This document shows, piece by piece, positions 11,588-20,091 of a DNA stretch of 64,000 nt. The notes beneath the pieces are model-generated. The model ran no database searches, was not told where the DNA came from, and worked only from the letters and a program-made list of their open reading frames with translations. The stretch comes from Candidatus Bathyarchaeota archaeon (GTDB taxonomy: Archaea > Thermoproteota > Bathyarchaeia > Bathyarchaeales > Bathycorpusculaceae). The position numbers were made by a program, and so were the translations under genes. Every line of letters begins with the position of its first letter. Position 1 is the first letter of the stretch. Where the stretch lies: NCBI GenBank assembly GCA_026014725.1, contig JAOZHV010000026.1, forward strand, positions 1 to 64,000, in the 5' to 3' direction.

Positions 11588-11968
11588 TTATTTTAGGGCT
11601 TCTTTTAGCGCTGAAAAGTACGCCAGCACCTGTTCTATCTGGGGCTTAGCCATTGATAGGATTGCTTGTACGGCGGCTTTCTTTGGCGTCGTTGTCAGGG
11701 TGGCTAGTGCGTAGTCTAAGCTGGTGAAGAGTGCTTCCCACGGAATATTAACTCGCTTGCCCTTGAGGTTGTAGAGTGCCAAGACAAAAGCGCTTGCACG
11801 GCTGAGGCTGTCTTTGAATGATTGCACACTGTTGCCGACAGCCGCCACATCATAATCTTTTCCTGCGATAAATCCTTGGATGACTTGGTAATTTTGCTCT
11901 AAATTTTGAATTTCCACAAGCAAGTCTTGCTTGATTTTTTCTTCTGTGCTGTTTTGCATGTTAATCAC
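11588..11968 (-). CDS. Helical hypothetical protein (126 aa)
   Basis: The protein is predicted to be mostly alpha-helical, with an N-terminal coiled-coil-like stretch (STEEKIKQDLLVEIQNLEQNYQVIQ) and a C-terminal helix pair. There is no signal peptide and no cysteine. I do not recognise a family. It stands alone between the molybdopterin enzyme and the glycosyltransferase, on the same strand. Confidence 0.6.
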   Translation of the reverse strand: MINMQNSTEEKIKQDLLVEIQNLEQNYQVIQGFIAGKDYDVAAVGNSVQSFKDSLSRASAFVLALYNLKGKRVNIPWEALFTSLDYALATLTTTPKKAAVQAILSMAKPQIEQVLAYFSALKEALK

Positions 11969-12004: not shown

Positions 12005-13426
12005 TTAATTAATCGCTGACGGGTTTCCTGAAAAGCGTTTTAGAGCCCGTGTAATCTTGTGTCTGCTTGCCCAAGCAAGCCCAGATAGGGCAATCGTAAA
12101 TCCAGCATATTGAATGCCAATCAAAAAGTTATCTTGAATAGGTAAAGTATATGTGAAGAGGGAGTAGCCTACGTCAACGGTTGGTTCAACCCTGAAAATC
12201 AAGTAATCCCATGTGGAAAACAGGTTGACAAAACGCATGTTGTAGAGGAGCGCCGCCGCCACTAACACAAGTCCCGCCGCGGCAACAAAAGATATGACCA
12301 GTTTTCTCTTTGGGTTAGTTAGTTTGAGCAGGGAGAGGCTCTTGGTCACCAGTGAGGCTGCCAAGAAGCTAAAAAAGGATAACGTGTGATAATTGTATTT
12401 TATAGCGTTAAGAAATGGCGCTTTCAGGTTCAATACAGCACCCAAATAGAGGTCAATACTTAAAACAAGTACGATGACTGCTACGCATGTTAAGTCAAAA
12501 GCAAGAAACCTGTGAAATAAGCGTCTCTGCAATAAACAAACAAGCACTGATACAATCGCGGCGTCTACGAAAAACCAGCCCAACGCATAAGCCGTCAGAA
12601 AATTGCCGATAAACCAAAAACTCGGAACCACTGTGCTTACGTTATGCACCATAAAGTCTGTGTGACCAAAGATAGATGTTACGCCCAGCCCTGAGATTGT
12701 TTGGTACCACAAATAATAAAATAACAAGACAGGCGCAGAGAACACTGCCAGCCAACTTAGGGTGCGCTTTAGGCTTGGTCGATTATACAAAAACAGTACG
12801 ATTAACGGGATAAGTGTGAAGACTGCGTAGAGTTTTGTGTTGAAGGCTACCGTGAAGAGTATTCCTGAAACAAAAAATAGCCCAAGTGAACTTCTGCGAA
12901 TAGCAAGTATCCCAACAAATAGGGAAAATAGGCTGAAGAATAGGCACTGCACATCGATTAGGAAGCTTCTGGAGAGGATAATGTGCCATGGGCTGAAAGC
13001 GAACAATGCAGCCGCAAAAAGCCCTGTTGTTTTATTGTACATGACTTTGCCGATGCCGTACACTAAGGCGACGCATCCAAGCCCAAACAACGTTACCAAG
13101 AATACGCCATTGCTGATTGATACTCCGAAAGCTTTCATGAAGGCGGCTTGCGTGTAAAAGCCCAACGGCGGCTGGTCCATTAAGTAAAAACCGTTCGTGT
13201 AGGGCAAGCCGTAGTTGATTACGCCCAGCACAGCGTCGTATTCCCATGCGGTGTCCCCGTTGTAGTAAGGTCCAATGGAGAGGGCAACCAGCATAAACCC
13301 GATTAGGATGCTCAAAAGCGGATAGTTCTCGCTGAGCAATCTTTTGAGGCTGTCTTTACCAAAAGAGAATTGACTGCTAATTTGTGTTTGCAGAATGCGG
13401 TCAATTGGCGCTTTGACTATTTTCAA
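12005..13426 (-). CDS. GT-C glycosyltransferase, PMT/ArnT (GT39-like)
   Basis: The 473-residue protein has about 11-12 membrane helices and the GT-C layout: an acidic residue in the first external loop (GDTAWEYDAVL) and the DQPPLGFYTQ motif followed by VYGIGKVMYN and LFAAALFAFSPWHI, typical of dolichyl-phosphate-sugar glycosyltransferases that act on the outer face. The last gene of a same-strand cluster with two SGNH hydrolases and two acyltransferases, it probably acts in surface glycan or glycoprotein modification. Acceptor and sugar are unknown. Confidence 0.8.
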   Translation of the reverse strand: MKIVKAPIDRILQTQISSQFSFGKDSLKRLLSENYPLLSILIGFMLVALSIGPYYNGDTAWEYDAVLGVINYGLPYTNGFYLMDQPPLGFYTQAAFMKAFGVSISNGVFLVTLFGLGCVALVYGIGKVMYNKTTGLFAAALFAFSPWHIILSRSFLIDVQCLFFSLFSLFVGILAIRRSSLGLFFVSGILFTVAFNTKLYAVFTLIPLIVLFLYNRPSLKRTLSWLAVFSAPVLLFYYLWYQTISGLGVTSIFGHTDFMVHNVSTVVPSFWFIGNFLTAYALGWFFVDAAIVSVLVCLLQRRLFHRFLAFDLTCVAVIVLVLSIDLYLGAVLNLKAPFLNAIKYNYHTLSFFSFLAASLVTKSLSLLKLTNPKRKLVISFVAAAGLVLVAAALLYNMRFVNLFSTWDYLIFRVEPTVDVGYSLFTYTLPIQDNFLIGIQYAGFTIALSGLAWASRHKITRALKRFSGNPSAIN

Positions 13427-13516
13427 AGCTGACTTCCTGCCCGTGAAATCAGTTCAACTCTATTTTGTCTTTTTTATGTAATATAATTTTACACTATCAG
13501 CACCTAAAGGCTGTCT

Positions 13517-14596
13517 TTAACCGATTATTTTCTTTACGTAAGGAATCCTTTTTAGGGGAGCAATAATTGCCAGACAAATCAGAAGCGTGACGCCTGTGAT
13601 TAGTGGAATTGCTATAAATGGGTTTATGGTGGTTACGCTTAGTCTAAAGCCAAGCAAGCCCTTTTGAAGAGTTTCAAGGACTATAACGTGGAACAGGTAA
13701 ATCGGGAGGGTGTTTTGGCTAATTAGTTCCAGCACTCTGCTGGCGTGAGGATGCTTGGTTTGGATTGTTTGGTTGGGCACAGCGGCTAAAAGGAGAAACA
13801 AGGCGACTGAAGCGATGATGACGCTAAAGCTTGAGGCGTCATAGAAGAATTGGCTGTACTGCTCACCCATGGTGCCGACCAAAAGGTAAGTGCCAATCAT
13901 TGTCCAAATGAGGCTTAAAGCCAAAGCTACCGTTAATATTGAAGAACGCAACCGCAACTTCGTAACGTAAGCCCCTAAAACAAAATAGCCAACCATTCCA
14001 GTTAAGACGAAAACCGTTTGTTTAAACCACACTACTTGGGGGCTAATCTGCACATACAAAGCAAGTAGGGGAACTATGGCGGTGCCTAAAAACCAGATGA
14101 GCAGAAAGTACCTGATTAGTTTCCACTCTGCACAGGCTACTACTATTCGTATCAGCGGAGTGAGAAGGTACAAGCCTAATAAAAGATAGATAAACCAAAA
14201 GTGGTAATATGGACCTGCGAACACGCCCCGCAGAACCGAGTTTGCTGTCAGTGTTTCGCCGTTAACGAAGTGCCGCCATGCAAAATATATTATGCCCCAA
14301 AATATCACCGGCAACCCAATTCGGTTTAGTCTTTTTTTGAAAAAGACTCTGAGTGGTTCATCAAATTTACTTGGTTGCAACAGTAGCGCTCCAGTTAGAA
14401 TAACGAATAACGATACAGCTGAGCATGCTATTGTGTTGTAAATGTTGGAGGCCCACCAAATCTGGACGCCTTGAGGAGACATTATGTCAATAGTTGGAGT
14501 CGCTTCGATTGAGGCATGAAACAAAACAACCAAAACTATGGCTACTGTTCGGATCAGATCAACGGGAAGGTTTACATCCCCACTTTTCGGGTGCAA
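13517..14596 (-). CDS. Acyltransferase family 3 membrane protein, copy 1
   Basis: The 359-residue protein has about ten membrane helices. The N-terminal motif NLPVDLIRTVAIVLVVLFHAS carries the Arg and His (FHA) conserved in AT3 enzymes that move acetyl or other acyl groups across the membrane onto glycans. The length and start (ATG, MHPKSGDVN) align residue for residue with copy 2 at 15488-16576. It lies downstream of SGNH copy 1, consistent with a split version of the AT3-SGNH fusion known from OatA-type O-acetyltransferases. Confidence 0.88.
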   Translation of the reverse strand: MHPKSGDVNLPVDLIRTVAIVLVVLFHASIEATPTIDIMSPQGVQIWWASNIYNTIACSAVSLFVILTGALLLQPSKFDEPLRVFFKKRLNRIGLPVIFWGIIYFAWRHFVNGETLTANSVLRGVFAGPYYHFWFIYLLLGLYLLTPLIRIVVACAEWKLIRYFLLIWFLGTAIVPLLALYVQISPQVVWFKQTVFVLTGMVGYFVLGAYVTKLRLRSSILTVALALSLIWTMIGTYLLVGTMGEQYSQFFYDASSFSVIIASVALFLLLAAVPNQTIQTKHPHASRVLELISQNTLPIYLFHVIVLETLQKGLLGFRLSVTTINPFIAIPLITGVTLLICLAIIAPLKRIPYVKKIIG

Positions 14597-14722
14597 CTTT
14601 TGGTCCCTTTAACCTTTACCTTGTAGTTGTTTATCGGCTTGATTTTCTAATAAAATTTACGATATAAGCTAGAAAAGCACTTGTTCTAGTTGAACAGTGG
14701 CAGAATGAGCTTGAATAGCAAG

Positions 14723-15403
14723 TTAATGGCTAATGGTGGAAGATAAGCCTTTAAAAATTGCTTCAGCGATTAGTCTTCCGCCTTCTTCGTCAGGATGCAC
14801 GCCGTCGCCGAAACGTTCTGGGTGATTTAACAAAGCGGAGTACACATCGATGAGGGGCAATTTTGTTTTGGTTGCAACTTCCTCGATACGGGGAAGCACC
14901 TGCGAGGTGAAGTATGGGGTGCTCAAGCCTGTGCCGTTGTCAAAGATTGGCGGCGGTTTCACAAGAAATATTTTTGGTTTGCTTGCCAGTGCCTCAAATG
15001 CGCTTATGAGGTGAATGTAGTCGTTTACGAAGCTTGAGTTGAACTGCTGAACGTATGGGTTAGCGTCGTTGGTTCCAAGCATTATGATTACCATGTGGGG
15101 CTGGAACTTTTTTGCCTCTTGAAAAGCAGTTTGGTACATGTATGGAAAATCGTTATCAAGCGAAACTGTTGTTCCGCCAACTCCAAAGTTGCTGACTGTG
15201 TAGTTTGCGCCAAGCATTCTCCAAAGCTCGTTTGAGTAGCCGCTGCTTTCGGTGATGCTGTCACCTATGCAGGCAACGCGGATAGGCAAGTCTGGGAGTT
15301 TTTCTCCAATACCGACTGCTTGAATAAAGAGGGCACCTGCAATTATCATGAGAGTAATTCCGAGTGCTAATAGCACAGTCTTGGTATTCATGTTTTCCGT
15401 CAC
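14723..15403 (-). CDS. SGNH/GDSL hydrolase with N-terminal membrane anchor, copy 1
   Basis: The 226-residue protein has one N-terminal membrane helix (about residues 8-30) and an SGNH domain. Block I is ACIGDSITESSG with nucleophile S49, block III has the GTND motif in IMLGTNDANPY, and block V has the Asp-His pair in FGDGVHPDEEGG. SGNH proteins act as esterases or as acyl acceptors or donors; the tethering and the neighbouring AT3 gene suggest surface glycan O-acylation. The upstream gene is AT3 copy 2. Confidence 0.88.
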   Translation of the reverse strand: MTENMNTKTVLLALGITLMIIAGALFIQAVGIGEKLPDLPIRVACIGDSITESSGYSNELWRMLGANYTVSNFGVGGTTVSLDNDFPYMYQTAFQEAKKFQPHMVIIMLGTNDANPYVQQFNSSFVNDYIHLISAFEALASKPKIFLVKPPPIFDNGTGLSTPYFTSQVLPRIEEVATKTKLPLIDVYSALLNHPERFGDGVHPDEEGGRLIAEAIFKGLSSTISH

Positions 15404-15487
15404 ATAAATAATGGTTTACATGATTAAACCTTTGGGCATTATTCGACAGAAATAATCAACATATGAGTGCAGGTTACGATTACCCTT

Positions 15488-16576
15488 TTAACCGATTAAG
15501 TCCTTTAAGATGGGTATTTTTTTGAGCGGAACAATAACGGCAAGGGAGAGGAAAAGCACAATCACAGTCATCAATGGAACACCGACGATGGAGTTGATTG
15601 TGTTTCCGTTTATGGTTATGCCTAAGTAGCCTTTTTGGAGCGATTCAAGAATAATTACGTGAAAGAGAAAGATGGGCAGAGTGTTTTGGCTGATTAGGCA
15701 AAGTAGCCCTCTGAGTTTTGGGTGGCCGCTCTTTGCTGGCTCTGCCGCGCCTGTTTTCTCTTGAGTCTGGGGCGTTTGAGTTGTATTCAACCAGAGAAAC
15801 AGCATTGATGCAGCTAGAATTAGCGTTGGGCTGAAGTATTCTTGGAAGAAAAACATTGTTACGCCGCCTATAGTGGCTGCTATCACGTACGTGCCAATAG
15901 CGGTTAAGGCAACGCCAAGAGCCATGAAAAACAAGATAGTTGAGCGCTTCAGTTTTACATTTACAAGGTATGCGCCAAGTAAAAGGTACCCAGCGTAACC
16001 CGTGAAGGTAAAAACATTATTGGCCAGATAGAACGATGTGAATAAACGGCTAACTGGAAGGATAGATGCGCCCACTAGCCACAGTATTATTAGGTATTTT
16101 ATCAGGTTGGCACTTGCATGAGCCATCAGCACTCGCAAAGCAGGCGTTACGAGATAAAGCCCAAGAAGCAGATACAAGTACCAAAAATGGTAGTAAGGAC
16201 CAGTAAGCACTCCATTGATGACAGCAGTTGAAGTAAACGCTTGCCCCTCAACAAGAAAATCCCAAGCAAAGAAAACAGCGCCCCAAAAAATGAAAGGCAA
16301 ACCGATTCGAGCCAACCGCTTCTTAAAGAACACGCTAAGAGGCTCATTTACTTTGCTTGGTTGAAGCAGAAGCGCACCAGTTAACATTAAAAACAGGGGA
16401 ACCCCAAGACGCCCCACGCTTTGATAAACGTCAACTGTGCACCAGCGGAAAATTTCCAGCAGATTTAGTTGCTGAATCGTTAAGTCATTGGCAGCGTGGA
16501 GCAGAAGTACTAGGATGATGGCTGTTGTTCGTATAGCATCAACAGGAACATTGCACCCTCTCTCCTGATTCAACAC
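15488..16576 (-). CDS. Acyltransferase family 3 membrane protein, copy 2
   Basis: This paralogue of the 13517-14596 protein has the same ten-helix layout and conserved motif NVPVDAIRTTAIILVLLLHAA. The reading frame is open to a TTG at 16639, but the GTG at 16576 (MLNQERGCNVPVD) makes the N-terminus exactly co-linear with copy 1 and follows an AAGGGGAAA ribosome-binding sequence, so 16576 is chosen. A 25-residue insertion rich in Thr, Gln and Ala (about residues 265-290) separates the last helices. It lies just downstream of SGNH copy 2. Confidence 0.85.
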   Translation of the reverse strand: MLNQERGCNVPVDAIRTTAIILVLLLHAANDLTIQQLNLLEIFRWCTVDVYQSVGRLGVPLFLMLTGALLLQPSKVNEPLSVFFKKRLARIGLPFIFWGAVFFAWDFLVEGQAFTSTAVINGVLTGPYYHFWYLYLLLGLYLVTPALRVLMAHASANLIKYLIILWLVGASILPVSRLFTSFYLANNVFTFTGYAGYLLLGAYLVNVKLKRSTILFFMALGVALTAIGTYVIAATIGGVTMFFFQEYFSPTLILAASMLFLWLNTTQTPQTQEKTGAAEPAKSGHPKLRGLLCLISQNTLPIFLFHVIILESLQKGYLGITINGNTINSIVGVPLMTVIVLFLSLAVIVPLKKIPILKDLIG

Positions 16577-16653
16577 TTTCCCCTTGCTAGCAACTGCATA
16601 CCGTAAAAAGGGTACACTTACACTAATAAGATTTAACAAAAAACACGCGCCAA

Positions 16654-17316
16654 TTACGAAGACAACGCGTTGAAGATTATGTTCGCGATAGCCTGCGCAC
16701 CCTCCACGTTCGGATGAACCCCATCCTCCAAAAAATACTCCTGATGGCTACTTAGAGGAGTGTAAACATCAATAAGCCGCAAGTTCATCTGGTTCGCAAC
16801 TTGACTAATGCTTGGAATGATGTTTTGTCGGAAAGATTCTGGGTCAAGGTCAGAATCGTTTGGGAACACAGGTGGCGGCTTTACAATCCACACTTCAGGT
16901 TTGCTTGTAAACGATTTAATTTCTGCGACTAGCGTGGTATAGTCGGAAATGAATGTTTGATTTGTTTGGTTTAGGTTTAGTTGGGCATCGTTTGTTCCTA
17001 ACATTACGATTACGATGTGGGGCTGGAAATCCTTAGCGACTTGAAATGCCGTGCTATCCAAATATGAGTTGCCTGAGTTGAGAGCAACCGTGGCACCGCC
17101 AACCCCAAAGTCGCCTACAACATAATTTGAACCAAGCAACCCCCATAACTCAACAGGGTATCCTGTGCCCTGAGTTATGCTGTCCCCGACGCATGCAACC
17201 CGTACAGGACTCCTTTCTTGTGTAGCAAGCATAAAGGTTTCCAAACTGATTACAATCAACAAGACAACTATTGCGAGCGCTAACAGTTTCATTTTAAGAG
17301 CCAACTTTCTACCCAA
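16654..17316 (-). CDS. SGNH/GDSL hydrolase with N-terminal membrane anchor, copy 2
   Basis: The 220-residue paralogue of copy 1 has one N-terminal helix (about residues 8-28), block I ACVGDSITQGTGYPVELW, block III MLGTNDAQLN and block V EDGVHPNVEGAQ. Both copies share the unusual YPVELWGLLGSNYVVGDFGVGG-type segment after block I, so they derive from one duplication. It opens the SGNH-AT3-SGNH-AT3-GT39 series on the minus strand. Confidence 0.88.
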   Translation of the reverse strand: MGRKLALKMKLLALAIVVLLIVISLETFMLATQERSPVRVACVGDSITQGTGYPVELWGLLGSNYVVGDFGVGGATVALNSGNSYLDSTAFQVAKDFQPHIVIVMLGTNDAQLNLNQTNQTFISDYTTLVAEIKSFTSKPEVWIVKPPPVFPNDSDLDPESFRQNIIPSISQVANQMNLRLIDVYTPLSSHQEYFLEDGVHPNVEGAQAIANIIFNALSS

Positions 17317-19182: not shown

Positions 19183-20091
19183 ATGAAGTTCGGCTCATAC
19201 ACATACCAACCACAAAAACCAAAAGGCTTCGACTTCCACGTCCTACGAGTCAAACCCGAAATAGGAGAAAGAATCCCCCCGAGACCAGACATGCACAGCA
19301 ACATCGCCGTCTTCGCAGACAAACAAACAGTAAAAGACCACCCCGACTGGATCTCCCAATCCCCACTGGGACCAGCGCAATTTGGAAACAACAATTTTAA
19401 CATTTACTGGGACGTCGTATGTGCCACACAACCGCAACACCGCGAAGAACAGCTAGAATACATACAAGAAGTGAGCAGGCAATCACAAGGAATATGGCTA
19501 AACAGCCAATACTTCGCGGACCACGACCACTGCACATGCCCAAGATGCCAAGAACTCTGGAAAAAAAGCGGCTTAGGCTGGCTGGAGTGGCGCAAAAAAG
19601 AAGTCAACGATTACATAGCCCAAATTCGAGATGTCGTCAAAAAAGAGTTATTTTTATGTCTCCAACCTGACCCCGTAAGCTCCTATGAGCGTTACGGCGT
19701 GGACTTTGACGACTTAGCAAAGTATGCTGACGCGTTTAATGTTGTGATGTTCAGCAAGAACTATGCGACACCTTGGTATTGGGAAATGCTGGCACGTGCG
19801 TTCAAAAAACTGCTCAAAAAGCCTTTCTACATTAGCTTCTATGTTTACGGTCCAGGCGATAACCCTGAAGATGTCCCCACACCTGCAGAGTTGCTAACCG
19901 TCAGTACGCGTTGTGCAAGAGTCGGCGTGGACGGCTTTCTGTATTTGACTGATGGAGAGAAACAAATGCTAAATTTCCAAAAGGCAGCCCTTGCAAATGC
20001 AGAGCTGCGGCAAAGACTTCGCACTTACGGTGGGCAACCAGTTGGGGAATTTCTTGGCTGGGTTGCTAGCTGGCGAAAAAGCCTTGAATAA
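19183..20091 (+). CDS. Hypothetical protein, probable TIM-barrel glycoside-hydrolase-like fold
   Basis: The 302-residue soluble protein has no signal peptide. It contains alternating strand/helix segments typical of a (beta/alpha)8 barrel, for example FGNNNFNIYWDVVCA, WLNSQYFADHDHCTCPRCQELW, LFLCLQPDPVSSY, FNVVMFSKNY, KPFYISFYVYGPG and GVDGFLYLTDGE. The HDHCTCPRCQ segment, with a Cys-x-Cys-x2-Cys, may bind metal and resembles a pattern found in carbohydrate-active barrel proteins. The catalytic residues cannot be fixed from sequence alone. It stands alone with its own TATA element. Confidence 0.6.
   Translation: MKFGSYTYQPQKPKGFDFHVLRVKPEIGERIPPRPDMHSNIAVFADKQTVKDHPDWISQSPLGPAQFGNNNFNIYWDVVCATQPQHREEQLEYIQEVSRQSQGIWLNSQYFADHDHCTCPRCQELWKKSGLGWLEWRKKEVNDYIAQIRDVVKKELFLCLQPDPVSSYERYGVDFDDLAKYADAFNVVMFSKNYATPWYWEMLARAFKKLLKKPFYISFYVYGPGDNPEDVPTPAELLTVSTRCARVGVDGFLYLTDGEKQMLNFQKAALANAELRQRLRTYGGQPVGEFLGWVASWRKSLE

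Follow-up and report, generated by a model that had tools for sequence, protein, structure and literature searches.

Fused AT3-SGNH systems and separate MBOAT/SGNH systems are already known. The locus described here raises the question of what an archaeon would do with two genes for acyltransferase-3 (AT3) membrane proteins, each preceded by an SGNH gene, lined up beside the gene for a membrane glycosyltransferase. The locus lies in a 64,000-nucleotide stretch of DNA, called the window below (positions 1 to 64,000 of contig JAOZHV010000026.1, assembly GCA_026014725.1). Named matches, at about 40-68% identity, are to Candidatus Bathyarchaeota, including Bathycorpusculum and Bathyarchaeum tardum, which supports the earlier supposition of an archaeal host that lacks peptidoglycan.

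Organization of the gene array

Five codirectional genes on the minus strand are transcribed in the order SGNH1 (16654..17316; 220 aa), AT3-1 (15488..16639; 383 aa), SGNH2 (14723..15403; 226 aa), AT3-2 (13517..14596; 359 aa) and GT-C (12005..13426; 473 aa). The coordinates and Pfam matches bear out the SGNH-AT3-SGNH-AT3-GT-C order that the initial annotation had read from the DNA. The two predicted membrane-anchored SGNH proteins belong to the SGNH/GDSL_2 family (PF13472, E 8e-24 and 1e-21), and both AT3 proteins match PF01757 (E 6e-35 and 2e-41; 121 and 143 bits against a cut-off of 31). The GT-C protein is a PMT_2/GT39-like membrane glycosyltransferase (PMT_2, E 9e-19; 68.6 bits against a cut-off of 26.1). 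The gaps between the five genes, in transcription order, are 14, 84, 119-126 and 90 bp, and an ammonium transporter gene lies on the same strand 78 bp upstream of the array. Because AT-rich, promoter-like stretches precede both AT3-2 and the GT-C gene, a single transcript for the whole cassette is not assured.

A gene for a conserved 126-aa protein (11588..11968, minus strand) starts 36 bp past the GT-C gene. A Pfam search placed the protein in no family above the cut-off; its own family is found at 11 loci (61-83% identity), in every case near AT3/SGNH cassettes, of which it is the commonest neighbour. It is counted as a cassette member on the basis of this conservation, and the cassette thus runs past position 12005. 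A 302-aa protein without a Pfam match, encoded at 19183-20091 of the window, also recurs near AT3 or SGNH genes, at 7 loci.

The AT3 proteins

The two AT3 proteins of the window are co-linear, as first noticed, and 46% identical, and the R-x10-H and RxxR motifs and His303 are intact. In AT3-2 the motifs are R16-x10-H27 and R89xxR92, and those of AT3-1 fall in the same alignment columns. Conservation is high among homologues (R16 in 62/66, H27 in 64/66, R89 in 65/66 and R92 in 66/66), the later histidine is nearly or fully invariant, and PF01757 scores above its cut-off in 59/59 relatives. An AlphaFold model of AT3-2 (pLDDT 92.4) is all-helical, with long helices that by inspection fit 10 transmembrane segments. 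The best solved fold for this model is human HGSNAT, with a probability of 0.93 but an E value of 0.31; the match agrees with the TmAT superfamily as set out in passages of PMC12423673. Neither the AT3 profile nor the GT-C protein found a match when solved structures were searched by sequence.

Two other identities were considered for the membrane protein and rejected. An OatA-type fusion does not fit, since all 66 of 66 AT3 open reading frames are unfused (311-408 aa), and the original proposal that the SGNH and AT3 activities are split between separate genes is borne out. An MBOAT protein of the PatA kind does not fit either, the match being to PF01757, with no MBOAT match.

The SGNH proteins

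Both SGNH proteins of the window carry an N-terminal hydrophobic segment and all of blocks I, II, III and V (GDSIT, FGVGG, GTNDA, DGVHP), with the Ser, Gly, Asn and Asp-x-x-His residues in place, just as had been claimed for them. Catalytic residues are conserved across the family as well: Ser49, Asn112, Asp200 and His203 (numbered as in SGNH2) show no variation among 66/66 aligned homologues. The AlphaFold model of SGNH2 (pLDDT 93.7) shows an SGNH fold preceded by an N-terminal helix (residues 5-29).

Judged by their sequences, the SGNHs that accompany AT3 are a distinct subfamily. An N-terminal hydrophobic segment of membrane-spanning length is present in 56/66 AT3-companion homologues, versus 0/12 SGNHs from Thermoproteota genomes without AT3 (p 1.5e-8). 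Positive charge is greater on the N side of this anchor in 46/56 cases, a bias that would place the catalytic domain outside the cell. A secondary match to DUF459 (PF04311), the acetyltransferase family of PatB, is found at E<0.001 in 37/39 companion SGNHs versus 1/10 controls. In the window, SGNH2 scores 32.0 bits and SGNH1 26.4 against the DUF459 cut-off of 27.2, so that SGNH2 alone of the two lies above it; these matches are partial (profile positions 1-75 or 1-88 of 197) and are outscored by those to GDSL_2. The PF19040 SGNH domain matches neither window protein and 1/39 relatives.

The block II glycine, assigned by alignment rather than from coordinates, is replaced in 20/66 homologues (Ser in 11, Arg in 5, Ala in 3 and Glu in 1) and present in 12/12 control SGNHs from AT3-lacking genomes (difference p 0.03). 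Both window SGNHs retain it. Passages of PMC12148441 and PMC9487903 give Ser at this position in the known transferases SpOatA and NgPatB, Asn in CjPatB and Arg in PatB1; according to a passage of PMC9487903, S. aureus OatA is a transferase despite retaining the glycine. As a marker of paired versus unpaired SGNHs within the family, replacement of the glycine was discarded, with 13/38 versus 7/28 and no clear difference. The serine form (GVGSTTV), as in SpOatA and NgPatB, occurs in SGNHs downstream of AT3 at L086/L088 (B. tardum type), L074, L090, L097, L080, L082, L104 and other loci.

Some cassettes have the order SGNH-SGNH-AT3. The upstream SGNHs of these (L075:6977-7534, L079:8883-9443, L083:2932-3507, L096:5214-5837 and L106:3240-3848) have no N-terminal anchor and form a clade of their own (96/97), which would put a cytosolic or differently exported SGNH beside an anchored one.

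Pairing of AT3 and SGNH genes across relatives

Adjacency in related genomes, on which the first reading of the locus depended, was checked in the window's own genome and 60 Bathyarchaeia relatives. These 61 genomes hold 92 AT3 genes, and a pair was defined as an SGNH gene within 800 bp. By this measure 39/92 AT3s are paired, in 25 genomes, versus 0.49 expected under random placement. The remaining 53/92 AT3s have no SGNH gene within 800 bp, some of them lying near contig ends. At the level of whole genomes, SGNH is present in 30/31 that bear AT3 versus 5/30 that lack it; because the genomes are related to one another, the p-value of this contrast serves only for guidance. The window's genome has 5 AT3 and 3 SGNH genes; the B. 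tardum-type genome G048, a single 2.15 Mb contig, has 3 of each, all paired. A 200-genome sample of the phylum contains AT3 above the cut-off in 15 genomes, 13/15 of them in the window's order and 13/13 of these also with SGNH, and it yielded further AT3-SGNH pairs in 3 more genomes of the same family. Among bacterial relatives of these AT3s, 0/22 have SGNH as an immediate neighbour.

The 36 resolved pairs fall into three arrangements, with the SGNH gene upstream (19), downstream (12) or convergent (5), arguing that closeness outlasts rearrangement. Distances in the SGNH and AT3 trees agree (Mantel r 0.745; 0/2000 shuffles reach r), and when partners were shuffled within genomes only, the observed value was reached in 2/5000. 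Native partners score best in 8/9 multi-pair genomes. In this window, the one genome that departs from the rule, tree agreement is about equal for native (0.734) and swapped (0.737) partners; assignment of an SGNH partner to each window AT3 by trees was therefore left undecided.

The AT3s that stand apart from SGNH genes have neighbours of other kinds. Unpaired AT3s of another clade lie beside genes for P-type cation ATPases (about 870 aa), or beside a small PhageMetallopep-type gene and one for a 560-590 aa protein (L126, L127, L131, L111, L130 and similar). In Bathycorpusculum (L068, L115, L119), AT3s are adjoined by a radical SAM/SPASM gene and a DUF362 gene, and L068 has two tandem AT3s near CobS.

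History of the two pairs

The like order and orientation of the two pairs, together with the co-linearity of the AT3s and their level of identity, would be expected if a recent tandem duplication in this lineage had produced both, and the initial annotation described the pair as duplicated. Phylogeny overturned this reading. AT3-2 belongs to a 10-row clade (100/99) with GT-C-linked AT3s of G006, G011, G013, G015, G018 and others, and AT3-1 to a separate 26-row clade (98/96), where its nearest relative is L067:8174-9295 of G003 (63% identity). An AU test rejects the two AT3s as sisters (177 log units, p 1e-5). SGNH1 groups with SGNHs of G024, G015, G018 and others in a clade of 7 rows (99/94); the placement of SGNH2 in the tree is weak, and forced sisterhood of SGNH1 and SGNH2 costs 39 log units (p 0.02). 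Since the AT3s fall in separate old clades and the SGNHs are not sisters, the locus holds two ancient paralogous pairs side by side. Parts of the array also occur elsewhere, as SGNH-AT3-1-type-AT3-2-type in G003 and SGNH1-type-SGNH2-type in G015, which again tells against a recent duplication and leaves that history scarcely credible. From these partial arrays, the four-gene array may be old, with partial loss in other genomes.

The GT-C neighbour and the probable acceptor

The GT39-type neighbour pointed out in the initial annotation recurs in one orthologue group: a GT-C gene adjoins 7/10 AT3s of the AT3-2 clade and none of the other AT3s examined. If AT3-2 and its SGNH work together with the adjacent GT-C protein, the likely acceptor would be a glycan assembled on a lipid carrier at the cell exterior, an S-layer glycoprotein or the outer sheath. 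In cultivated Bathyarchaeum tardum, both an S-layer and an outer sheath of unknown make-up have been described (PMC10477458). The old split between the AT3-1 and AT3-2 subfamilies makes it plausible that the two pairs differ in acceptor or acyl donor, as was originally suggested. At one relative locus, a gene for a Pvc16_N (contractile injection system) protein (L071:4369-4902) lies two genes downstream of the GT-C gene.

A model for SGNH-AT3 pairs, and its alternatives

We consider it probable, by analogy with OatA and with PatA/PatB, that each SGNH-AT3 pair is a two-protein extracytoplasmic O-acyltransferase. The AT3 protein (about 10 helices) would draw its acyl group from acyl-CoA in the cytosol (probably acetyl-CoA) by means of Arg16/His27 and Arg89/Arg92, and present it at the outer face of the membrane. 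The SGNH protein, fixed in the membrane by a single N-terminal helix and with its catalytic domain exposed to the exterior, would accept the group on Ser49 and hand it on to a surface-glycan hydroxyl. The AT3-2 set would work with the adjoining GT-C glycosyltransferase, and AT3-1, of the other old subfamily, would probably serve a different acceptor or acyl group. Passages of PMC12148441 describe the OatA route as acyl-CoA to a Tyr on AT3, to the SGNH Ser and on to the glycan. According to parts of PMC9558356, OatA requires both domains and the AT3-only protein WecH functions with a separate SGNH, PatB. The route from acyl-CoA to surface glycan is drawn from these two precedents, as are the AT3-to-SGNH handover, the direction (transferase rather than esterase), the type of acyl group and the acceptor, all of which are proposed by analogy.

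One might instead expect AT3 alone to acylate the glycan, with the anchored SGNH an editing esterase, as Ape1 is beside PatA/PatB. The solved folds closest to the window SGNHs are carbohydrate and sialate acetylesterases, the best NCBIfam similarity is to the SGNH domain of the acetylxylan esterase AxeA1, and the block II glycine is retained in both window proteins. Several cassettes have two SGNHs per AT3, one of them unanchored, and passages of PMC9558356 indicate that AT3-only proteins are able to function alone. This alternative nevertheless seems unlikely, though it deserves serious attention: SGNH and AT3 co-evolve tightly, the companion SGNHs lean toward DUF459/PatB where the controls do not, and a transferase-like Ser or Arg stands in block II of 16/66 homologues, including the B. 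tardum pair L086/L088.

A non-glycan acceptor (for instance the headgroup of a membrane lipid, a polyprenyl carrier or a small molecule destined for export) is distinctly unlikely. AT3 substrates are diverse, as parts of PMC9558356 relate, and the neighbours of the AT3-2-type gene in G003 and G017 are polyprenyl synthetase, MFS-type transporter and radical SAM genes instead of a GT-C gene. Against this stand the prevalence of GT-C neighbours in the rest of the AT3-2 group and the resemblance of the SGNH folds to carbohydrate-acting enzymes. That adjacency reflects chance, or shared inheritance without functional coupling, is very improbable. Linked genes that are passed on together do yield matching trees, but closeness is kept in all three orientations, the within-genome swap control still favours the native partners, nearly every AT3-bearing genome has an SGNH gene, and the bacterial AT3 relatives lack an adjoining one.

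Significance for stand-alone AT3 proteins

The AT3 literature, in the relevant passages of PMC9558356 and PMC9833829, asks how the many AT3s that lack a fused SGNH function and whether they have a partner yet to be identified, and PMC9833829 in part raises a separate partner as a possibility. The passages searched on archaea, SGNH domains and partners in papers on AT3, TmAT and SGNH proteins make no mention of an archaeal AT3-SGNH gene pair, and the literature searched yielded no report of such pairs or of surface-glycan acylation in Bathyarchaeia. The evidence suggests that a system which in bacteria is known as a single fused protein exists here in the form of separate genes. We also favour, with somewhat more reserve, a broader view: the AT3 plus anchored SGNH would be a split glycan acyltransferase, equivalent to the MBOAT/SGNH pairs but built on AT3. 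It would be widespread among those Bathyarchaeia that have AT3 and would comprise several co-evolving pair types, one of them tied to GT-C. It would offer a separate SGNH partner for stand-alone AT3s, and O-acylation of archaeal surface glycans would have a first predicted system. Because the AT3 and SGNH genes are conserved, co-evolve and are split by nature, the handover can be tested with parts made separately. Whether stand-alone AT3s need a separate SGNH likewise becomes testable, including in cultivated Bathyarchaeum tardum, and O-acylated surface glycans are predicted for a group that ranks among the most abundant uncultured archaea.

Comparison with known systems

Among known systems, the bacterial fusions OatA, OafA and OafB share with the Bathyarchaeia proteins an AT3 module with R-x10-H and RxxR and an extracytoplasmic Ser-His-Asp SGNH. 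The Bathyarchaeia differ in having two genes, with an anchor on the SGNH itself; in their type of SGNH, which belongs to GDSL_2, leaning toward DUF459/PatB, and not to PF19040; and in their host, an archaeon without peptidoglycan or LPS. Stand-alone AT3s such as Oac, WecH and IcaC likewise have no fused SGNH domain (the proteins here are 353-408 aa as a rule), but many Bathyarchaeia AT3s are adjoined by a dedicated SGNH gene, whereas for the bacterial proteins a partner is unknown or thought unnecessary, as passages of PMC9558356 and PMC9833829 have it. The TmAT superfamily, through HGSNAT, provides the best solved fold for AT3-2; HGSNAT has no sequence match to AT3-2 and works without an SGNH. 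Its reaction is the N-acetylation of heparan sulphate. The two-gene systems PatA/PatB, DltB/DltD and AlgI/AlgX resemble the Bathyarchaeia pairs in combining a membrane acyl exporter with a separate extracytoplasmic SGNH transferase, and the partial, secondary match of the companion SGNHs to DUF459 points toward PatB. Their membrane partner is an MBOAT protein, whereas that of the Bathyarchaeia is an AT3 protein of the TmAT fold.
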